Shown here piece after piece: positions 4,853 to 23,531 of a stretch of 30,245 bases of DNA. A model generated the notes under the pieces. It was not told the origin of the DNA. It saw only the letters and a program-made list of their open reading frames with translations, and did no database searches. A program made the translations under genes and the position numbers. Position 1 is the first letter of the stretch. The number at the start of each line of letters is the position of its first letter. Origin of the DNA: a virus; the IMG/VR virus record IMGVR_UViG_3300020312_000083, positions 1 through 30,245 of that record, one strand, 5' to 3'.

Positions 4853-5175
4853 TATGTTATCACCACTGTTATTGTTCCTAGAGAACCTGTGGCACTTACT
4901 CCTGTCGGGTAAAACACCGGTTCATATAAATTTCGCCAAGCATTGCCATCGTACGCTTGATGTACTTCGATCGTTGTATTGAATATTAACCCACCTGGGC
5001 TAAATTTTCTACTATTTCTTTCCGTTGTTGTGTAGGAAGGTACTACATTTAAGTCCAATTGGAAAAGGTTTTGTTCAATTGTTCTCACTAACCTATTCAA
5101 AGTATTGGCATCTATGTCTTCCTGATTAAACCGAGGAAGAGAAGAGAAAGCCTGTCTTATGTCATATCTTGGCAT
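4852..5175 (-). CDS. Small virion protein ending in a TGV-type beta repeat, 107 residues
   Basis: Function is not recognised. The N-terminal 45 residues look helical and charged (FNQEDIDANTLNRLVRTIEQ). The middle has a beta-rich part with an IEVHQAYDGNAWRNLYEPV segment. The protein ends in TGVSATGSLGTITVVIT, which matches the repeat unit of the 147-residue protein at 8229-8672 and the C-terminus of the zinc-ribbon protein at 15386-15721. Both junctions are TAATG. Position next to the nozzle protein suggests a tail or tail-tip component. The shared C-terminal strand may be an assembly element; that is inference. Confidence 0.75.
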   Translation of the reverse strand: MPRYDIRQAFSSLPRFNQEDIDANTLNRLVRTIEQNLFQLDLNVVPSYTTTERNSRKFSPGGLIFNTTIEVHQAYDGNAWRNLYEPVFYPTGVSATGSLGTITVVIT

Positions 5176-7031
5176 TATTGTCTCCCATCTGGTTTAACAT
5201 CTAATCGTGTAGAACCTAATCGCCATCCTACACCTAATCTGTTTGCTGTGTTTGCTGATCCATTATTATAACTAGAAACTTTTAAAGAAAATTGTCTTCC
5301 ACGCCCTCTCATGTTTTTAACTTTTGTCGTTGAATCAACTGGGATATTAGCATCTGTGGATAAATTATCTCCAGGTGAATTTCTCATTTGTACAATTAAA
5401 TCAACAGTTTGACTTCCTGCTATATCTGTACCAATAAATTTAAAATCCGGTATAACTCTACTAACAAAGGCAAATTGTTCACCATCTTGAATATCTATAT
5501 CACCAGATTGAATATATACATCATCCATTGGAGAGCCGTCATTATCATATCCAGTTTCATGGGCATACATATATCCATTAGAAGAACCTTCTGTTGCTCT
5601 TGGTTTTTGATAGATACCGTAATCAATCCAAGCTGTTCTACTTAATTTACCTATAGACCATGTTTGCTGAACATAATTATATGTTACATATCTATCAACC
5701 TCAGTTGATCCTGATGAAGGATAAAACCATCCAACTTCATCAAATGTTTGATTAGAAAAACCAAATATTTTATATCTTTCATCATAGTTAAGATCGCCAA
5801 ATACATATTCTTTTACAGTGCATGGAAGTGATTGAATAGACCCTGTATATACATAAAAATTAGATTTATCCATCCAAAATGTTGCGTCAGCACCATTAAC
5901 AGCAGCATTTGGCCCTATAATCGACGGACCCCTAGCGAGGAGAGAAGTGGTAAAGGGAAGGGGTCCGCCTACGAATCGCAATGAAAACAATGCGACATCG
6001 GTCCATACTAATATTTCTTGTCTTGTTTGTAGACCACCAATAATTTCTGAGCCTAAGTTTAATTCTATTTGATCAGCAGTTGAAGTGCCGTCTGTTCTTA
6101 TTTGCCAATCTACAGCACTATCTTGGTTAGATATTCCTATTATCATAGGGTCTATTGTTCCAGTTCTTGACGATCCAGATATTGGATCAACGCCAAGTGC
6201 TATAACATGTCCATCTCTTTCAGATACGATAACTTGATTGGCTTTAGTTGGTGCAAGGTTGGCACTTGCATCAGCCGTAATGTTGGTGGCACGGGAAGCC
6301 GTCCCTCCAGACTCATCCCATTTGTAAATAGCTCCACCGCGATAATTAATAATAAGGTCTTCACCGTAGTTATCCTGATTCCATAGTCTAAATTCCGTTG
6401 AAGGAGAGCCGTATCCCCAAGAACCTGAGTTCCATGTACTTGCTCCCCAACCACCTAATAAAGACTGTTGGTCTTCTCCGGTTGGAATTTCAAATTCAAA
6501 TGTTAGAGAGCCCCCAGTACTGGAAGTCGAACCAGAGGCAGTCGTACTTACTGTTATATCAAAATTATTAGCATCTACAACAGCTACTGTATGATTTGCG
6601 TTTATTTCTGTAATTGGAATACCATCTACTGGTGCAGCAAGACCAGATATAGTAACAAAGTCACCAGTTGCACAGCCATGAGATGTGACAGTAAACCGCA
6701 CTGAAGTTGTGCCATTTGTTGTCATTGGATTGCTTACAGTTTGTGTATTTCTTAATGGTGTAATATCGTAATAATTTCCGTTATTTAAAACATAAAATTT
6801 ACGATTAGTTCCTACACCAACATATTGGTTAGCATCAAAATCAGACCATTCTAGTAAACTTCTGCAAGTTCCTACAAATGAATTACCAGAATACTTTTCC
6901 CACCCACCTATTTTTTGCGGTAGTCCATATTGAAAACGAACAAGATTACCATCGGTCCATCCACCTTCGTCTGTATAGTCTGTTGTCTCTTTATTTATTC
7001 CTGGTCTGAAATTAAATTTCGCTAACGGCAT
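5175..7031 (-). CDS. Tail nozzle / packaged-DNA stabilisation protein, P22 gp10-like
   Basis: Probable tail hub or nozzle that closes the portal-adaptor channel. The chosen start (MPLAKFNFRPGINKETTDYT) gives 618 residues, has GGAAG about 9 bases upstream and overlaps the S74 fibre gene by 20 bases. A longer reading upstream adds only a Lys-rich stretch and is less likely. The protein is beta-rich with Trp/Gly/Asp blades, such as GTNRKFYVLNNGNYYDITPL near the N-terminus and repeated Trp-centred strands, as expected for a beta-propeller. About residues 113-180 look like an inserted Thr/Ser/Val-rich domain. The family assignment rests on the N-terminal pattern known from podovirus gp10-like proteins. 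Confidence 0.75.
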   Translation of the reverse strand: MPLAKFNFRPGINKETTDYTDEGGWTDGNLVRFQYGLPQKIGGWEKYSGNSFVGTCRSLLEWSDFDANQYVGVGTNRKFYVLNNGNYYDITPLRNTQTVSNPMTTNGTTSVRFTVTSHGCATGDFVTISGLAAPVDGIPITEINANHTVAVVDANNFDITVSTTASGSTSSTGGSLTFEFEIPTGEDQQSLLGGWGASTWNSGSWGYGSPSTEFRLWNQDNYGEDLIINYRGGAIYKWDESGGTASRATNITADASANLAPTKANQVIVSERDGHVIALGVDPISGSSRTGTIDPMIIGISNQDSAVDWQIRTDGTSTADQIELNLGSEIIGGLQTRQEILVWTDVALFSLRFVGGPLPFTTSLLARGPSIIGPNAAVNGADATFWMDKSNFYVYTGSIQSLPCTVKEYVFGDLNYDERYKIFGFSNQTFDEVGWFYPSSGSTEVDRYVTYNYVQQTWSIGKLSRTAWIDYGIYQKPRATEGSSNGYMYAHETGYDNDGSPMDDVYIQSGDIDIQDGEQFAFVSRVIPDFKFIGTDIAGSQTVDLIVQMRNSPGDNLSTDANIPVDSTTKVKNMRGRGRQFSLKVSSYNNGSANTANRLGVGWRLGSTRLDVKPDGRQ

Positions 7032-8229
7032 CTTGTAATTCTTCCACTTTCTCTTCGAGGTCTTCGATTTTCCAGATAGCATCTTTCAATGCCTGAGTAA
7101 GTAAAGGAACCAGCTTAGAATGATCTAATTGCTGTAAAATTGGTGCGTCTGTTACTGGATCAACAGCGTCCTTGTCACCGGTGACTGCTTGAGGTACAAC
7201 TTCTTGTACTTCATGAGCTAAAAAACCTTCTTGTCTTGTAGGATTAATAATATCCTTAAACTCATATTGAAGGGGTCGAAGGTCAAGAACCCTTTCACAT
7301 GCATCTTCTATATCACCAATTACATTTTTCTTTCGGTAATCAGAAGTTGTATTATAAGCGGCATTTACACCATCATTTGAAATAGAACCAACAGTAGTTG
7401 CACCATTTAAAAATGTCATATGTTGAATACCACTACTTTGATAGCTTTTAAAAGTCGTGTTTGTGTCTATAAAAGCAGTTGCGTTGTCAGTAGCCGCAGT
7501 TGATGTTCTGCCACCGTAAAATATATTTCCAGAAGAATCTATTCTTACTCTTTCAGCTGAACCACCAGTCACAAAAGCTAATTGGTTTGATGTGGCTTGT
7601 ATATTGTTTCCATTAAGATTTATTAAATCAACAGTTAAATTTGTTAAAGGAGCATTTGATCCAACATCTGCACCATCTATTGATCCTCCATCAATATCTA
7701 CAGAATCTAAATAAGCAGTTCCATCAATGTATAAATCTTTCCACTCAACTCCCGTAGCTCCTAAATCATATGTATTTGTTGTATCTGGAATAATTCCTTG
7801 TGTTAACAATCTTCCAATGCCATTAGCTATATTACCATTAGTAGCTCCCCCACCATCAGAATAGATAATAGCTGTAATTCCATTAGGAACAGTAACTGTA
7901 GTGCCAGATGTTCCTTGTTTAAAAGTTAAATCATAACCACCGGTCGTAGAATTTTGTACATACCAACTTTTTTCTAAATCACTTGGTCCAAATGTTATAG
8001 TTCTATTAGCTGATAAAGTTCCTGTAAATTTAATAATTTTATTTAATGCATCAGCTGAAGAGCCATCTGCAACATTTAATGAAATATCTCCATCAGACAT
8101 AGAATAATCTACATAACCAGATATTGCCTGGTCAACCAATTCCATATTTGTGTTTGTACTTGTTCCCCAGGTACCTGACTCGTCGCCTGTTCCAATTAAT
8201 TTTATACCTAAATTACTAAATGTAGCCAT
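7012..8229 (-). CDS. Tail fibre with C-terminal S74 intramolecular chaperone
   Basis: A receptor-binding fibre or spike of 405 residues. The N-terminus has the fibre pattern TGDESGTWGTSTNTNMELVD and a beta-sandwich-like domain to about residue 130. A thin Thr/Asn/Ser-rich shaft follows. From about residue 296 the Peptidase S74 domain begins with SDYRKKN, where such fibres cut themselves after trimerisation. It continues with GFLAHEVQEVVP and ends in a Glu/Leu coiled coil (KIEDLEEKVEELQ). I chose the ATG at 8229, which forms TAATG with the preceding stop and has AAGGA about 10 bases upstream. A longer frame would need a TTG start. The S74 domain would be removed from the mature trimer. Confidence 0.9.
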   Translation of the reverse strand: MATFSNLGIKLIGTGDESGTWGTSTNTNMELVDQAISGYVDYSMSDGDISLNVADGSSADALNKIIKFTGTLSANRTITFGPSDLEKSWYVQNSTTGGYDLTFKQGTSGTTVTVPNGITAIIYSDGGGATNGNIANGIGRLLTQGIIPDTTNTYDLGATGVEWKDLYIDGTAYLDSVDIDGGSIDGADVGSNAPLTNLTVDLINLNGNNIQATSNQLAFVTGGSAERVRIDSSGNIFYGGRTSTAATDNATAFIDTNTTFKSYQSSGIQHMTFLNGATTVGSISNDGVNAAYNTTSDYRKKNVIGDIEDACERVLDLRPLQYEFKDIINPTRQEGFLAHEVQEVVPQAVTGDKDAVDPVTDAPILQQLDHSKLVPLLTQALKDAIWKIEDLEEKVEELQDAVSEI

Positions 8230-8672
8230 TATGCAGCAATCCTTACCCAATTAGGTGTTTGACTGGTATCAACTTCTTCCCAAAGAAGTGTAGTACCAAT
8301 AGAACCTGTTATTTCAACTCCTGTTACAAATATATCAGAACCTAATCCTACGGTTACTGAACCTATAAGTAACTGTGCACCTACACCACTTGGATATGCA
8401 GTTACACCAGTGCCAACACTAACATTATCTAGTGTTGATGTCACTTCAATTCCTGTTACTGGAACTGTTACATGAGCAACAACTTCAACATTAACTGTTC
8501 CAAGCAATGCATTAGACTCAACACCTGTTACTTGAATAATAGCTGTTTGACCAGCTGCGACAGTTCCAATTTGTCCAGTTCCAACTACACCAGTAGCTTC
8601 AACAACTATACTAGCGGAAGTTAAAGATTGTGCATAAGCAGCTTCTGAATATGTTGTAAAACCTAAAGACAT
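8229..8672 (-). CDS. Beta-repeat virion protein with VTGVE-type units, 147 residues
   Basis: After a short N-terminus (MSLGFTTYSEAAYAQ) the protein is built of about five degenerate units of 21-24 residues. Each carries (V/A)TG(V/I)E and later L(L/I)G(T/S)V or a similar strand, for example VTGVESNALLGTVNVEV and VTGVEITGSIGT. It closes with a distinct tail, VDTSQTPNWVRIAA, which I recall from marine phage structural proteins. No enzyme motif is seen. A clear TTAGGAGT ribosome site precedes the ATG. It sits between fibre genes, so a fibre, tail-tip or decoration role is likely. The same unit is found once at the end of two other proteins here. Confidence 0.8.
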   Translation of the reverse strand: MSLGFTTYSEAAYAQSLTSASIVVEATGVVGTGQIGTVAAGQTAIIQVTGVESNALLGTVNVEVVAHVTVPVTGIEVTSTLDNVSVGTGVTAYPSGVGAQLLIGSVTVGLGSDIFVTGVEITGSIGTTLLWEEVDTSQTPNWVRIAA

Positions 8673-8706: not shown

Positions 8707-8919
8707 CTATTCTGTTGTGAATTGTCTATTTTCTTCTTTAATAAGTGCTTTTATTTGATCGCCTAATTCATTAGAATTAATATCTTCTAATGCATTAAGA
8801 AAATTCCTATCTTTACTAATTACAGAAAATTGCACATTAAATTCATGTTTGTGCTGTCTTGAGTGTAATTCATTAACATTCATTTCACCATCTGGATTAA
8901 TTGGTGATGGAAATGACAT
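8707..8919 (-). CDS. Small hydrophilic unknown protein, 70 residues
   Basis: No family is recognised. The N-terminus is Pro/Asn-rich (MSFPSPINPDGEMNVNELHS) with a His pair in HSRQHKHEF. The rest looks like a beta hairpin followed by an acidic helix (NELGDQIKALIKEENRQ). There is no membrane segment and no cysteine. It is coupled by TAATG to the chaperone-like gene before it and precedes the repeat protein by 34 bases. Placement suggests a fibre-assembly helper or minor tail protein, but the sequence does not decide. Confidence 0.65.
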   Translation of the reverse strand: MSFPSPINPDGEMNVNELHSRQHKHEFNVQFSVISKDRNFLNALEDINSNELGDQIKALIKEENRQFTTE

Positions 8920-9329
8920 TAAGCACTACCTTGAGGTGGATATGCAGGTGTAGCAATATTTAAAGATGCAACAGGACAATCAGGAAATGTTATTAAATCA
9001 ACATCAGCATTAGAATCTGGTAAATCTCTTAACTCCTGTCTCCATGTTTGAAGTGCTGTTTTATCATCAGAGCTTAATGGAGAATCAGCAACAAGAGCCC
9101 AATCAGTATCTTTTAAAAGATTATTTCTAATAGACCTAATCCCATCTTTTCTGTTGGTTTCATAATTATCAATAGTCTCTTGAGTTTCTGCTTTTGCTCT
9201 ATCCCACTGTTCATCAGTAAAGTCTTTATTAATCCTTTGACCATAAGTTGGTGAGCTAGGATCGTCATCCCTTACATTCATTTGCGGTCTTGTAGAAAAA
9301 ACCGGAAAATCACTTTGTTGATAAGCCAT
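8919..9329 (-). CDS. Tail-assembly-chaperone-like protein (larger copy)
   Basis: A 136-residue protein. Residues 68-105 read RNNLLKDTDWALVADSPL, then a spacer, TWRQELRDLP and a final FPD. This is the pattern of the phage tail assembly chaperone family (RxxLLxxxDWxxLxDxPL...YRQxLRDLP...FP). The N-terminal 60 residues contain FPVFSTRPQMNVRDDDPSS and a helix with DEQWDRAKAETQET. TTAGGAG lies just upstream of the ATG. It shares the C-terminal domain with the 94-residue protein upstream, so the two are probably ancient duplicates. A role helping fibre proteins fold or attach is inferred from the family and from the adjacent fibre genes. Confidence 0.75.
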   Translation of the reverse strand: MAYQQSDFPVFSTRPQMNVRDDDPSSPTYGQRINKDFTDEQWDRAKAETQETIDNYETNRKDGIRSIRNNLLKDTDWALVADSPLSSDDKTALQTWRQELRDLPDSNADVDLITFPDCPVASLNIATPAYPPQGSA

Positions 9330-9389: not shown

Positions 9390-9674
9390 TTATAGAAAAC
9401 TTGGCTTATTTGGAAAATCTACATAAGGAAAATCAGTATGAGAAGGTAAATCTCTTAACGATTGCCTATATGCGTTAGCCTCTGTTTTTTGAGAATCTGT
9501 TAATTGACAGTCAGCAAGAGCAACCCAGTCGCTGTCTTTCAACAAATCATTTCTCATACCTCTTTTTACAATAGAGTCATTTGTTTTTGTTAATTCTGTA
9601 TCTTCTTCTGGAATACTTACATCAATTTCAATGTATTTATTAAGTGTTCCATCATATACTTGTTGTTTTGCCAT
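9390..9674 (-). CDS. Tail-assembly-chaperone-like protein (smaller copy)
   Basis: A 94-residue protein whose residues 41-88 (RNDLLKDSDWVALADCQL, then YRQSLRDLP and DFPYVDFPNKP) follow the same tail assembly chaperone pattern as the neighbouring 136-residue protein. The first 30 residues form a different beta-rich piece (VYDGTLNKYIEIDVSIPEE). The two copies differ enough at the ends that they may serve different fibres. It starts 8 bases after the fibre-like gene ending at 9683. A 60-base gap separates it from the next gene; that gap is AT-rich. Confidence 0.75.
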   Translation of the reverse strand: MAKQQVYDGTLNKYIEIDVSIPEEDTELTKTNDSIVKRGMRNDLLKDSDWVALADCQLTDSQKTEANAYRQSLRDLPSHTDFPYVDFPNKPSFL

Positions 9675-9682
9675 GATATTAA

Positions 9683-10456
9683 TTACACCGTAATTGCATA
9701 TAAAGCAACGATACCTTCTGTAAAATTTCCAGCTGCATTATAAACATAAAAAGCATCTGCGTAATTTGAAACGGGTTGACTATTAGAAGCACCGGCTACT
9801 CCCCATTCCCTATCCATATAAGTACCAGAAGCAGCAGTTCTAGTAGAAGAATCCCACTGATATCCCGATGCTTTCAGATTATTTTCGTATATAAAATGAG
9901 AGTAAAATCTAGGAGAGTAAGCATTACCATTGTAATCTTGTACGGCATATGTATTACTAGCATAAGGATAACTTAAACCACCAAAATATCCTGGTGACAT
10001 ATAGTTCTGATTCATGCCATAATTTGTTCCTTGATAACTTCCTCCTTGATAAACCCGAAATATTGAAGTGTTCCATTGATTTCCTGTGGAAACAGATGAT
10101 CCATTATTGTAAGGTAATATCCTTATTTGAAAAGTATTTACAGCTGAATTAGTTGATACTCCCCAAAAATGCAATTCATAAGAACGAATATTTGAAGCCG
10201 TCATAGATGCTTTTTTAGAAAGCATAAAATTAGCAGGTGTTGAGGTTTTTAAATCTATAGAACCACAAAATTGTTTTACAGGATCACCAGCTCCAGCCCA
10301 TGATAAAGTTCCGCTTCCATTTGTCTGTAAAAATTGAGCTGCTGTTCCATCTGCTGTGGGCCAAGTATAAGATGTATTTCTTGATTTTATTTTTACATCT
10401 TTTGCAGCGGCTGAAGAAAGAGTTAGATCATCATTAGATTTAACTTCAGAAACCAT
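9683..10456 (-). CDS. Fibre-like protein, paralogue 4 of 4 (257 residues)
   Basis: The last member of a tandem family of four. The N-terminus keeps one copy of the family linker (PTADGTAAQ, then NGSGTLSW at 46-53) but begins with a different leader (MVSEVKSNDDLTLSS). The body is rich in Tyr, Ser, Asn and Gly, as in receptor-binding beta structures. The C-terminus, FTEGIVALYAITV, matches the DGIVELYA or DGMVEMYG endings of the paralogues. The start is coupled as TAATG to paralogue 3. It is shorter than the others because one linker copy is missing. Role as an adhesin or fibre tip is inferred from composition and context. Confidence 0.75.
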   Translation of the reverse strand: MVSEVKSNDDLTLSSAAAKDVKIKSRNTSYTWPTADGTAAQFLQTNGSGTLSWAGAGDPVKQFCGSIDLKTSTPANFMLSKKASMTASNIRSYELHFWGVSTNSAVNTFQIRILPYNNGSSVSTGNQWNTSIFRVYQGGSYQGTNYGMNQNYMSPGYFGGLSYPYASNTYAVQDYNGNAYSPRFYSHFIYENNLKASGYQWDSSTRTAASGTYMDREWGVAGASNSQPVSNYADAFYVYNAAGNFTEGIVALYAITV

Positions 10457-11403
10457 TAAACAACTCCGTCTTTAAACCATCCTGAAAGTACAAATGTACC
10501 ATTATTAATATTACTCCCATTAGCAAGGTGAACTTTAAAAGTCATTGTATGTGTTACACCTACTGTACCAAATGGAGTAGTTGAACTGTTATATACAACA
10601 CCAAAATTATAGCCGTCATATTGACTCCAATCAATATTGTGTGCACTTCCCCATGACATCATTGTTCCAAAAGGATAACCCCTAGCGTTCCAATATATAT
10701 AACTACCACAAATTCCTGCACCTCTATAACCTGTGCTGTTGTAAGATAATTTTTGACCTGAGGTTGTAAAATCACACGATCCACCAAAATACTGAGTACT
10801 TGGATAAAATCCACTTCCAGCAGTATAACTATACATTCCAGAATTTGTATTTCTTCCGTAAGAGCCAAAATAACTTACCCCGTGAGTTTGAAGGTCTACT
10901 TGACCAGCTGTTGTTGTTCCTGCTTGATCATAATTTCTAATAGCAGGATAAGCCTGATAACTATGAGCCATCCCACTAACTGACCAAAAATCCAATCTTA
11001 AGGCAAGAACATCGCTTGGTGTTGTTGTTATTGCTGTTGGTACACTTAAGTCAATTTCCGCTGTATTTCCTGTAACTGATTCGTCAAAAACAACTTTGTC
11101 TAAAAATTGCCAACCCTGCTCTGTGCCGTCTGGTGTTGATGTTGGACTAGTTACAGTTCCCCATCTTGTATCTCCACCTGTAGAGTTTGACTGTAAAAAT
11201 TGACCAGAACTTCCATCAGTGTTTGGTAAAGTATAAGTTAAGGAAGAGCCGTCTGCACTTTTAAAAGTTTCTTGAGAACCCCATCCAAGATTTCCACTTC
11301 CGTCAGTATTCATTACTTGACCAGCTGTGCCATCTGCGGCAGGTAGTTTAAAAGCTGTTGTACTGTTTTGTGACTGAATATTTTTAACTACTATTTTACC
11401 CAT
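10456..11403 (-). CDS. Fibre-like protein, paralogue 3 of 4 (315 residues)
   Basis: The N-terminus MGKIVVKNIQSQN leads to PAADGTAGQ and DGSGNLGW (34-41), with a second, degenerate linker near 74-81 (STGGDTRW). After about residue 95 the sequence is a Tyr/Gly/Ser-rich beta domain with many aromatic residues, such as YGRNTNSGMYSYTAGSGFYP. It ends in FVLSGWFKDGVV, related to the shared ending of the family but more diverged. No catalytic motif, signal or membrane segment is seen. The conserved linker with a variable body is the usual design of phage receptor-binding proteins; the specific receptor cannot be told. Confidence 0.75.
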   Translation of the reverse strand: MGKIVVKNIQSQNSTTAFKLPAADGTAGQVMNTDGSGNLGWGSQETFKSADGSSLTYTLPNTDGSSGQFLQSNSTGGDTRWGTVTSPTSTPDGTEQGWQFLDKVVFDESVTGNTAEIDLSVPTAITTTPSDVLALRLDFWSVSGMAHSYQAYPAIRNYDQAGTTTAGQVDLQTHGVSYFGSYGRNTNSGMYSYTAGSGFYPSTQYFGGSCDFTTSGQKLSYNSTGYRGAGICGSYIYWNARGYPFGTMMSWGSAHNIDWSQYDGYNFGVVYNSSTTPFGTVGVTHTMTFKVHLANGSNINNGTFVLSGWFKDGVV

Positions 11404-11412
11404 AATATTTTC

Positions 11413-12348
11413 CTATACATCTATTCCATTTTTAAAATGAGCATAAAGCTCAACTATACCGTCAATCCAATTAGCTGTTTGGTTATTTGAAAGTATAAAG
11501 CCACCCATGCGAGCACTAGGGCCACCCACGAGTTGTCCATGAGACACAACACGCTCAAAATTATTTCCAGGAGCATTATGAATATTGCAAATATTTAAAT
11601 ATGTTTTATTTGTGATGGCATTATATATTAATATCTCTTGATCCATATGCTGAGTGCCAGAATCTACATTACCACCACCTAATCCGTTAGCGTCATCAAA
11701 AATACTTGATGTAGTATTGTATTGAGATACTATTTGAGAATAATTTGGCTGTATGTAATTAGCACTAGACGGAGCATAACTAAACCCCTGGGGATTACCA
11801 CTGCTGCCGGTATTATGAGCACCACCTGCAACATACTCATAGCCAGCTGAAGAAAGAGCTGAGCCACTTTGATCTGTCAATTGCAATTTCTGACTCCAAT
11901 AATTTGAATTGGCAATTCTTAAGCCATATAATTTTACTGTATACCCTAATATTTCTGATAAATCTGTAGTATAAGCAGTTGGCACAGTAAGCGTAAATGT
12001 TGCGGCGGGCGTAGAATTTGTTATATCAACTCTATCACATAATCTTAATCCTGTTTCTTTTGGCGAAGAACCAGAAACAGTAAAAGGATTTGTCGCACTA
12101 AATGTTGATAAGTTACCTGCTCCGTCTGTTCTAAAAGCTAAACCATCAGATGCAATGCTATTTGGAAAATTTAGTGTCGTGTTTCCGTCTTGTGTTTTTA
12201 TAGGTAAAGAATCAGATGTAAAAGCTAATGTTCCTAATCCATCTGTTGATTTAACCATCTGACCAGCTGTTCCGTCAGCTGTCATCCATGTAAGTTCTGG
12301 AGAACCTCCTGTTGTGTTTTGTAATTTATTTACTACTACTTTACTCAT
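11413..12348 (-). CDS. Fibre-like protein, paralogue 2 of 4 (311 residues)
   Basis: Starts MSKVVVNKLQNTTGG, followed by MTADGTAGQ and DGLGTLAF (36-43), and a second linker DGAGNLST at 75-82. The body is a beta-rich domain that opens with RLCDRVDITNSTPAATFTLT, aligned with the LLDKVD and FLDKVV segments of its neighbours. Its C-terminus NWIDGIVELYAHFKNGIDV is the clearest example of the shared ending. The gene is separated from its neighbours by only 9 and 15 bases, each with its own start context. Fibre or adhesin function is inferred. Confidence 0.75.
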   Translation of the reverse strand: MSKVVVNKLQNTTGGSPELTWMTADGTAGQMVKSTDGLGTLAFTSDSLPIKTQDGNTTLNFPNSIASDGLAFRTDGAGNLSTFSATNPFTVSGSSPKETGLRLCDRVDITNSTPAATFTLTVPTAYTTDLSEILGYTVKLYGLRIANSNYWSQKLQLTDQSGSALSSAGYEYVAGGAHNTGSSGNPQGFSYAPSSANYIQPNYSQIVSQYNTTSSIFDDANGLGGGNVDSGTQHMDQEILIYNAITNKTYLNICNIHNAPGNNFERVVSHGQLVGGPSARMGGFILSNNQTANWIDGIVELYAHFKNGIDV

Positions 12349-12363
12349 ATTCCACCTTTTTTA

Positions 12364-13287
12364 TTACGGGTAATTCACATTAGCGTCTTGCATTAATCCA
12401 TACATTTCAACCATTCCATCATTCCAATTAGTTCCATTAGCACTCACAATCTGTACTCCATAAGGCTTTGAACTTAAAGCCCTCCAACCATTATATTGAT
12501 TTTGTATAAAACAAGCCTCACCACACATTCCAAATGCTTGATTATTTGCATCAGATGCACCATATGCCCACCAAACCGAAGGCATTGCATTGCCCATATA
12601 GGCATATACATGGGCAGTAACACCTTTTCCATACTGTGTGGTACTTGAGGTATCATTAAAAGCTACAGTGCTAGTTCCAAACATACTTTGGTTCATTGCA
12701 TTTGATGATTCAATATAACTACTATTACTTGATTGCCAGTCAGATGCACCTGATCCCTGCCCAGAGGTCCTTCTCCAACCAGCCATATTTTGTGTGTTTT
12801 GATGAACAGAATTTCCACTATTATCTATAAATCTCATATATAAATAATCACCGTTATTTGTATTTCCTAGTCCTATTATTTTTAAATAAATACCTATCAT
12901 AGAAGCAGTGTTAGTTACATAGCTTGATGGAAAAACGAAATTAATGTTAGCACTAGCAGGAGTAGACACACAGTCAACTTTATCTAATAGATAATAACCA
13001 TATCTTCTGTTTGTACTATTTCCTGATTGATACATAGGGTTAGCAGGTGCGTTTGCATAACCTATATTACCTGATCCGTCTGTTTTTAAGGCTTGATTAG
13101 CACTACCAGCAGCGGCAGGGAAAGTATATGTAAGATTAGGTCTTTTTATTGATGATGAATAATTAGTCCAACCTAAATTGCCAGACCCATCTGTTTTTAA
13201 TTGATCATTTGCGACTGGTGTTGCTGTTGGTAAAGTAAGAGCAGTACCGCCACTATATTGAATTTCATCTACGACTAATTTTGACAT
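12364..13287 (-). CDS. Fibre-like protein, paralogue 1 of 4 (307 residues)
   Basis: Starts MSKLVVDEIQYSGG and carries two well-preserved linkers, DGSGNLGW (33-40) and DGSGNIGY (70-77). Residues from about 97 (YYLLDKVDCVSTPASANINF) begin the variable beta domain, rich in Asn, Ser, Gly, Tyr and Trp. The ending WNDGMVEMYGLMQDANVNYP matches the family C-terminus. It follows the fibre-base-like protein by 9 bases. The repeated linker resembles modules found in phage tail fibres and head fibres. The protein could decorate the tail or the head; the adjacent fibre genes favour the tail. Confidence 0.75.
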   Translation of the reverse strand: MSKLVVDEIQYSGGTALTLPTATPVANDQLKTDGSGNLGWTNYSSSIKRPNLTYTFPAAAGSANQALKTDGSGNIGYANAPANPMYQSGNSTNRRYGYYLLDKVDCVSTPASANINFVFPSSYVTNTASMIGIYLKIIGLGNTNNGDYLYMRFIDNSGNSVHQNTQNMAGWRRTSGQGSGASDWQSSNSSYIESSNAMNQSMFGTSTVAFNDTSSTTQYGKGVTAHVYAYMGNAMPSVWWAYGASDANNQAFGMCGEACFIQNQYNGWRALSSKPYGVQIVSANGTNWNDGMVEMYGLMQDANVNYP

Positions 13288-13296
13288 ATTTTTCTC

Positions 13297-13974
13297 CTAA
13301 GTCATCGTAATAGTGCTGCCTAATTCTAATACAGCATGTTGTGTTGCGTCAATAACTTCTATACTAGCACTTGCAGCAACATTTAATGTTCCAGTTACAT
13401 TTAATTGACCTAATGTAACAGATTTATCAGCAATTGTTCCATCTACCCAAAAAGGTGATATTTCATTACTATAAGCTGTATCAGCAATTAAATAAACAGC
13501 GTTATCAAAAACAGTAACATTACCTGATCCTGATATTGTTGTTCCTGTTTTTCCTACAAATACAGAACCCAATGTAAATCCACCTGTTGTTTCAGGTATC
13601 ACTCCTTGAGCACCTGTAATAGTTCCTGATGCAGACGCAATGTCTACAGCAGATAAAACACCAGATTTTTCGGCAGGCATTGTTACGAAAACATTTTTTT
13701 CGGCAGCAGCAAAATTTACTAATGCATCTGAATTAGATGATTCAAAAACAAAATCTCTTGATAATGTGGTGCCAGAGCTTGTATAGGTTCCAATACCTGT
13801 TTCCCATGTGTTATTTGCTGAGTCTACAATAGCATATTGAGTTCTTGCTCCATCTCCTAGAACAGAAAAAGCCTGAAAGCCATCAGCGGCTCCGGCAAGT
13901 GTAAGCGTTCCCGTACCAGAAGTGGTACTGGTTTCTTTTACTCTATCTGCTATTTGCAAACTAAAATGAGGCAT
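13297..13974 (-). CDS. Tail fibre base protein, 225 residues
   Basis: Residues about 8-108 form a widespread fibre module: ADRVKETSTTSGTGTLTLAG, then YAIVDSANNTWETGIGTYTS, TLSRDFVFESSN and NVFVTMPAEKSGV. The C-terminal part is a Gly/Thr/Val-rich beta region that ends ATQHAVLELGSTITMT. This module usually sits at the virion-proximal end of fibres. The gene is coupled by TAATG to the upstream structural gene and stands just before four fibre-like paralogues, so it may be the common attachment point for them. That last step is inference. Confidence 0.8.
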   Translation of the reverse strand: MPHFSLQIADRVKETSTTSGTGTLTLAGAADGFQAFSVLGDGARTQYAIVDSANNTWETGIGTYTSSGTTLSRDFVFESSNSDALVNFAAAEKNVFVTMPAEKSGVLSAVDIASASGTITGAQGVIPETTGGFTLGSVFVGKTGTTISGSGNVTVFDNAVYLIADTAYSNEISPFWVDGTIADKSVTLGQLNVTGTLNVAASASIEVIDATQHAVLELGSTITMT

Positions 13975-22849: not shown

Positions 22850-23338
22850 CTATATTGTAAAAACATCAGTTGGTTCCAAGATAGTTCCAAGAATCTCGTC
22901 GTCATTTAAAATCCTAATTTCGCCGTCAGCAAGTTTAATTCTTGTTCCAGCGTACTTACTAATAATTACCCACTCGCCTTCTTTACAGTAAGCTCCGTTA
23001 GGAAATTTCTTTTTATCTTTGTAAGCATCAGGGCCTAAAGTGACCACATAAGCTACGACCGTAGCTAAAGATTCTCTTTCTCGTGTCTCGTCGGGAATAA
23101 CAATGCCACCTTTAGATTTTTCAAATCCTTGAAAAGGCATAACAACCACACGATATCCTGTGGGTTGCGGTATTCTTTCTTTTGCGGATTTTTTAAGAAG
23201 ACTTGGATCAAGTACTCTTTTGTTTTCTTCAGTGTAAGCATCGGATACTTGTAGTTCAGGCTTCTCTTCCTTTTCTACTTTCTTCTCCACTTTTTTATCA
23301 GCGTACCTATCGGGTACATACAGCTTTGTTTTAGCCAT
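22850..23338 (-). CDS. groES: GroES-like co-chaperonin
   Basis: Residues about 60 to the end match the Cpn10 (GroES) family: PTGYRVVVMPFQ, then the mobile-loop segment KSKGGIVIPDETRERE, VVAYVVTLGPDAYKD, KEGEWVIISKYAGTRIKL and RILNDDEILGTI. The loop keeps the GGIV hydrophobic core used to contact GroEL. About 60 extra Lys/Glu-rich residues precede the domain, an extension absent from bacterial GroES. I chose the ATG at 23338 (162 residues), 9 bases after GGAGG; a GTG six bases earlier is too close. The gene overlaps the previous stop by 8 bases. Phage co-chaperonins such as T4 gp31 help host GroEL fold the capsid protein. Confidence 0.9.
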   Translation of the reverse strand: MAKTKLYVPDRYADKKVEKKVEKEEKPELQVSDAYTEENKRVLDPSLLKKSAKERIPQPTGYRVVVMPFQGFEKSKGGIVIPDETRERESLATVVAYVVTLGPDAYKDKKKFPNGAYCKEGEWVIISKYAGTRIKLADGEIRILNDDEILGTILEPTDVFTI

Positions 23339-23531
23339 CGTCACTATCCTCCTGTGACACCAGAGCGATTATCTCTTGCTCCACATAAGCCAGACTCTGT
23401 AATTGACCTATGCACGACCGATATGCTTCCCAATCTTTGCAGTTCCCTGAAGTTACTTTTTCGTGAACACTCTCCTTTTGTTCACGAATAATATGTAGTA
23501 TTTTTTGGATTAATTCAACCCCATCCATCAT
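23331..23531 (-). CDS. Small acidic helical protein, 66 residues, unknown
   Basis: An ORF of 66 residues after AGAGGAG, with a second in-frame Met directly following the first. The sequence is helical throughout: GVELIQKILHIIREQKESVH, GNCKDWEAYRSCIGQLQSLA and EQEIIALVSQEDSDDG. The DWExYRxCxGxxxxL pattern recalls a small conserved gene between the portal and the co-chaperonin in marine podoviruses, whose function is unknown. It overlaps the GroES-like gene by 8 bases, so the two are probably translated together. It could be a small assembly factor. Confidence 0.7.
   Translation of the reverse strand: MMDGVELIQKILHIIREQKESVHEKVTSGNCKDWEAYRSCIGQLQSLAYVEQEIIALVSQEDSDDG

Follow-up and report, generated by a model that had tools for sequence, protein, structure and literature searches.

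Systems comparable to the locus reported here have been described in other phages. In the Ackermannviridae, host range is widened by receptor-binding proteins encoded in tandem, which are conserved at the N-terminus and variable at the C-terminus; the N-terminal regions of TSP1 to TSP4 serve assembly, and one part is attached to the virion (PMC8825819, PMC11414711). In the Alteromonas phages A5 and V22, a host-recognition module made of a fibre and its cognate chaperone is exchanged between distant marine phages (PMC10579305). The present locus lies in IMG/VR record IMGVR_UViG_3300020312_000083, a 30-kb stretch (30,245 nucleotides; hereafter the window), and consists of four tandem genes, A to D, flanked by gene G (13297-13974) on one side and by two Phage_tail_APC chaperone genes, E and F, on the other. 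The window belongs to a Pelagibacter-phage-like podovirus, with a terminase 62-64% identical to those of 023Pt_psg01, Pelagibacter phage HTVC027P and Phage DSL-LC04. From comparison with related contigs (designated by L-numbers), we consider it somewhat more probable than not that the locus encodes a split tail fibre, in which G is the virion adaptor, A, B and C are three co-inherited subunits of one complex, and D is a receptor-binding tip that can be exchanged. The features of this cassette are as follows.

13297-13974, minus strand: G, 225 amino acids, probable virion adaptor; residues 1 to about 100-130 correspond to the domain at the N-terminus of relatives' long single-chain fibres.
12364-13287, minus strand: A, fibre paralogue, 307 amino acids; leader about residues 1-99 (13287-12991), body about 100-307.
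11413-12348, minus strand: B, fibre paralogue, 311 amino acids; leader about residues 1-96 (12348-12061), body about 97-311.
10456-11403, minus strand: C, fibre paralogue, 315 amino acids; leader about residues 1-93 (11403-11125), body about 94-315, predicted 11-strand beta-sandwich.
9683-10456, minus strand: D, fibre paralogue, 257 amino acids, probable exchangeable receptor-binding tip; leader about residues 1-57 (10456-10286), body about 58-257, predicted fold as in C.
9390-9674, minus strand: E, tail-fibre chaperone, 94 amino acids; Phage_tail_APC (Pfam PF16778, E 3e-15).
8919-9329, minus strand: F, second chaperone, 136 amino acids; Phage_tail_APC (Pfam PF16778, E 2e-12), present in all complete cassettes.
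8707-8919, minus strand: 70-amino acid protein with no role assigned, which travels with the cassette; 77% identical in L335, where the homologue of backbone protein T635 is 33% identical.

The evidence for three subunits that belong together begins with gene order. The order G-A-B-C-D-(E-like)-F is kept in L081, L084/L248, L083, L088, L107, L112, L117, L326, L328, L250 and L335, and comparison across these contigs shows that copy number is also constant in all complete cassettes found. In a tree of the leaders there is one group per slot, with Shimodaira-Hasegawa-like approximate likelihood ratio test support of 74 for A, 99 for B and 98 for C. The tree of the bodies requires three changes of slot label against a minimum of two, and the extra change falls at weak nodes. 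The topologies within slots also match one another: the window and L335 group with L081, L084 and L083; L250 groups with L112, L107 and L117; and L088 and L092 group with L328 and L326, although this last grouping is weak in the A slot and L092 is without A. Body identities are correlated between A and C (0.76), B and C (0.70) and A and B (0.57; Mantel p <= 0.0035), compared with only 0.17-0.37 for correlations involving D. Because A to C keep their slots and descend jointly while D alone is freely exchanged, parts of one complex fit the data better than four interchangeable adhesins.

The body of D is swapped independently, together with a matching chaperone, between otherwise near-identical cassettes. 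Between L083 and L084, proteins A, B, C and G are 92-100% identical (G 99%, B 98%, C 97-100%), and the D bodies share only 19%. Similarly, L088 and L092 share 95-100% in C and 98% in F, with 16% in the D body. The converse is seen between L107 and L112, where D is 97% identical and the bodies of A, B and C are 47, 40 and 56% identical (leaders 90-95%). Three types of D body can be distinguished. The first (window, L092 and L095) is accompanied by an E-type chaperone homologue of 92-94 amino acids, which in L092 and L095 is 49-52% identical to E; the second (L081, L084, L335, L326 and L328) by a 106-amino acid chaperone of the E type with 35-41% identity to E; and the third (L088, L107, L112 and L117) has no E-type chaperone. 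The D body type predicts the E-type chaperone, and E goes with the D type of the window. Swapping of the D tip is probably how the phage changes what it sticks to.

The cassette as a whole also has a history of its own. Between the window and L335, A, B and C are 51-54% identical and F 73%, but T635 is only 33% and S74 45% identical. Between the window and L107, T635 (84%) and J223 (83%) are similar, but A, B and C share only 32-35%. Because the identities of cassette and backbone disagree, with the cassette above the backbone between distant phages, the cassette has been exchanged between lineages as a unit.

Higher divergence in the middles of the proteins had been anticipated, and it is indeed found when the window is compared with L335: the leaders of A, B and C are 77, 76 and 80% identical and their bodies 37, 41 and 41%, and in D the leader is about 86-91% and the body 12% identical. 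A conserved N-terminus followed by a variable C-terminus is characteristic of tail-fibre loci, and here G is 64-99% identical across cassettes (72-76% between the window and other cassettes), with bodies as low as 12%. Point-mutation diversifying selection was rejected as the sole cause of body divergence for window/L335 and L107/L112, in which four-fold sites at conserved codons are two to three times more diverged in bodies than in leaders (p 9e-6 and 5e-4, respectively). It was not rejected for L107/L117 or L081/L084. These patterns suggest that selection and recombination both contribute.

The original prediction described four minus-strand open reading frames (ORFs) of 307, 311, 315 and 257 amino acids, and these were recovered with identical boundaries. 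It also placed them in one operon; their common strand and spacing (gaps of 15 and 9 bases plus a one-base overlap) are consistent with this, but a promoter and terminator scan gave hits at chance level only. Judged by their sequences, A, B, C and D are true paralogues with similarity beyond chance (blastp E-values of 1.5e-18 for A-B, 4e-13 for A-C, 2e-10 for B-C, and 4e-7 to 3e-6 for D against the others). All four have the same layout, in which a leader with one or two motif copies precedes a body of about 200 residues. Against 300 shuffles, the leaders score z values of 7.9-16.9, and the bodies 10.3 (A-B), 5.3 (B-C) and 5.8 (B-D), with just 2.0-3.3 for A-C, A-D and C-D in pairwise comparison. 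The predicted leader motif (..DGTAGQ..TDGSGNLGW) is present in all four proteins, and its strict pattern occurs twice in A and C and once in B and D. The C-terminal ends proposed to be related are clearly so in A (DGMVEMYG), B (DGIVELYA) and D (EGIVALYA), and more loosely in C (NGTFVLSGWFKDGVV). As for the repeated duplication envisaged for the four genes, the paralogy is real but the duplication is old, with order and number unchanged in every complete cassette; it is less likely that the genes duplicated recently to give independent adhesins.

The leader motif, in the form TADGTxGQxLxTDGSGxLxW, was seen in 343 of 600 candidate stretches from a leader-based IMG/VR scan. Because it is so widespread among environmental phages, the leader alone carries little information; it is likely a common fibre assembly element. 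No Pfam family is matched by the leaders of A to D, and no curated tail-fibre family or other notable Pfam or PHROG match was obtained for A, B and D. The sole hit in these databases is a 36-residue match of the C leader to phrog_12090, which has no assigned function. Among 50,697 phage records, tblastn gave no match for A and D, and only chance or leader-motif matches for B and C, even at E 10.

The expectation that the middles had diverged into different domains is not borne out, because profile alignment and AlphaFold both place the bodies in a single family, predicted to be an 11-stranded beta-sandwich. Profile-profile probabilities are 99.7% for A-B, 99.5% for A-C, 99.9% for B-C, 97.4% for A-D, 97.6% for B-D and 91.6% for C-D, and when the D profile is confined to the type present in the window, its matches to A, B and C remain at 94-96%. 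The AlphaFold2 model of C, built from 36 sequences, has a beta-sandwich over residues 95-315 with a predicted template modelling score (pTM) of 0.64, and its leader is unordered and not confidently modelled. The D model (predicted local distance difference test score 73, pTM 0.67) has 11 strands in an order identical to that of C. When compared by Foldseek with viral predicted structures, the two models share most of their top neighbours, which belong to a large and mostly unnamed phage family; those of D include one annotated tail fibre protein. A Foldseek search of the PDB with the C model found no significant fold (TM below 0.3), and PDB profile searches with the C, B and D alignments found no relatives.

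Support for a host-recognition locus, as originally predicted, comes from the two Phage_tail_APC genes directly downstream of A to D, since fibre-assembly chaperones in this position are a feature of tail-fibre loci, and from monolithic fibres with G-like N-termini that occupy the same site. In relatives whose T635 is 84-90% identical, there is often a single gene of 696-1496 amino acids at this position, as opposed to five genes in the window, and its first 100-130 residues or so are G-like. These single-chain fibres (L093, L095, L103, L168 and L188) share the genome position of the cassette and the N-terminal domain of G; fibres with lengths of 545, 696, 800, 899, 1113 and 1496 amino acids have N-termini 45-53% identical to G. 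Downstream of the single-chain genes lies a protein of 151-153 amino acids or, in L095, an E-type chaperone. In L095, the C-terminus of the 899-amino acid fibre is a D body (37% identity over 242 amino acids, E 4e-40), so that D body and chaperone follow one another as they do in the window. Because long fibres with a G-like start occupy this site and one of them ends in a D body, the A-D site is best regarded as a tail-fibre locus in a split state. In L185, a 545-amino acid protein joins the G N-terminus, a leader and a type-three D body. The place of the D body at the end of the L095 fibre, and behind a G-like N-terminus in L185, speaks for D as a tip. Another relative of G is the Roseobacter phage CRP-6 protein annotated as a tail fibre, and G is a probable virion adaptor, its N-terminal domain presumably attaching to the virion.

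The monolithic fibres of L093 (2872-7362, 1496 amino acids), L188 (1113 amino acids) and L103 (482-2572, 696 amino acids) have hardly any match to known families past the G-like start; the L103 fibre carries a Phage_cement_2 domain at 105-198. There is a G-like protein of 164 amino acids in L333 and L334, and in L333 it is followed by a long series of small genes with no assignment (79-246 amino acids), possibly a further expanded tandem set.

Tandem sets behind a G-like adaptor recur elsewhere. In L185, the G-D fusion is followed by three proteins of 284, 290 and 316 amino acids with slot-specific starts; this set recurs in L111, and two of the three are complete in L086. Its profile links to the A-D bodies are weaker, reaching 92% at best, with none for the third protein. 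The cultured phage HTVC023P has the G-like protein gp58 (54% identity over 103 amino acids) followed by paralogues gp59 to gp62 of 451, 443, 491 and 491 amino acids, and 023Pt_psg01 has three tandem paralogues of 460-473 amino acids behind a G-like adaptor; these tandem genes are annotated as hypothetical or putative structural. As in the window, the adaptor comes first and is followed by three or four paralogues of near-equal length with slot-specific N-termini (MSKIEVDEI etc.). However, the bodies are glycine-rich in these phages rather than predicted beta-sandwiches, and for HTVC023P homology to the window hardly extends past the first 55 residues or so (gp59-A, E 0.009). PF21722 (Gly_rich_2) is matched by gp59, gp61 and one 023Pt_psg01 protein (E 1e-13 to 1e-19), and a Pfam scan gave no match to it in A to D. 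The occurrence in L185, HTVC023P and 023Pt_psg01 indicates that tandem paralogues of near-equal length behind a G-type adaptor are a recurrent design of this phage group, realized with more than one body fold.

In a split fibre, G would anchor the assembly to the virion, and the slot-specific leaders would dock A, B and C in fixed places of one hetero-oligomeric complex, either branched or stacked, whose assembly would be assisted by the two APC chaperones. D would sit at the far end as the receptor-binding tip, determine specificity and mature with the help of its cognate chaperone, and the bodies of A to C, which change fast, may likewise come into contact with the cell surface or with defences of the host. 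The nearest working analogue of this arrangement is TSP1 to TSP4 of phages CBA120 and S117, which are also encoded by four genes in tandem and combine N-terminal regions that are conserved with C-terminal parts that vary, a feature of branched tailspikes that A to D share as putative receptor-binding proteins. In contrast, no sequence relation to these proteins was found, the adaptor of the window is a separate gene, and three of the four paralogues are co-inherited instead of being swapped one by one. Neither gp10-like XD docking domains nor enzyme folds were detected by a Pfam scan of all four proteins, and the C model gave no significant fold match in the PDB, though its leader was not confidently modelled. 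Because XD docking domains were not found, the locus may be said to work like a branched TSP1-TSP4 complex, not to be one. It resembles the A5/V22 module in that a fibre moves with its chaperone between unrelated phages, but there the fibre is single, whereas the window has four paralogues of which only D, with its chaperone, is freely swapped.

Several points weigh against this reading. Because A, B and C are adjacent, their co-inheritance may be plain linkage, at least in part. The trees are quick searches, and support at the deep nodes is weak for the bodies. Some of the contigs lack one end, and among the 11 cassettes there are near-duplicates in which the same virus is repeated. The C and D models are not independent, since the D alignment also contained B and C. 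Finally, four copies are not obligatory for the phage group, because the site carries three or four in related sets and one in monolithic fibres.

The most serious competing explanation, though we hold it to be doubtful, is that A to D are four independent adhesins, each forming a separate and probably trimeric fibre with its own receptor and so offering the phage several binding options. Bodies that diverge much faster than leaders would be expected of such proteins, and the Ackermannviridae provide a precedent for widened host range (PMC8825819, PMC11414711), but order and copy number are constant in all complete cassettes, A to C stay in their slots and diverge jointly with swapping confined to D, and the adaptor domain of the long fibres is found on G alone. 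A narrower and rather unlikely proposal is that the usual homotrimer is replaced by a heterotrimeric tail fibre to which A, B and C contribute one chain each, D being a tip that is separate and exchangeable. Pointers to this are the near-equal length, slot specificity and co-inheritance of the three proteins and the sets of exactly three in L185/L111 and 023Pt_psg01; no description of heterotrimeric paralogous tail fibres was found in the literature searched. Joining A, B and C in one chain to imitate such a trimer was dropped, because the MAFFT rows were split between blocks and the short linkers would preclude a parallel trimer.

A still less probable view casts A, B and C as proteins that form a stalk or decorate the tail or capsid, and leaves receptor binding to D alone. 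Free swapping, as a receptor-binding tip would be expected to show, is confined to D, and the G-D fusion in L185 suggests that these two parts can make a fibre alone; however, the bodies of A to C are homologous to that of D and diverge faster than any other part of their genes, which is unusual for purely structural proteins. An allele reservoir, with one of the four genes used at a time through recombination or switching, is very improbable: homologous leaders could recombine, but slot identity is maintained without clear between-slot exchange in the leader or body tree, and all four genes are intact in every complete cassette, no search aimed at switching elements having been made.

Other features of the window deserve mention. 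The beta-repeat protein before the S74 fibre (8229-8672, minus strand) has 147 amino acids, compared with 216-337 in close relatives that share its C-terminal end, and is apparently a contracted repeat protein. A 635-amino acid ORF (5175-7082, minus strand) overlaps the S74 fibre gene (7012-8250, minus strand) by 71 bases; because many relatives have a 618-amino acid form beginning MPLAKFNF, its true start is probably internal. Like HTVC027P and 023Pt_psg01, the window also encodes a protein with a Cpn10 (GroES-like) domain (Pfam E 7e-13); it has 164 amino acids and a GTG start (22850-23344, minus strand).

To our knowledge, little is known of host recognition by the phages of SAR11, the most abundant bacteria in the ocean. 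The paper describing HTVC023P-type clades makes no mention of tail fibres or receptors (PMC9599517), and an analogous module is present in this cultured phage (gp58 to gp62). The window cassette offers a concrete and testable candidate for a mobile host-recognition module, with one adaptor, three subunits inherited together and a single tip that can be swapped. Should A, B and C indeed form one hetero-oligomer, the fibre would differ from those of other phages, which are usually homotrimers.

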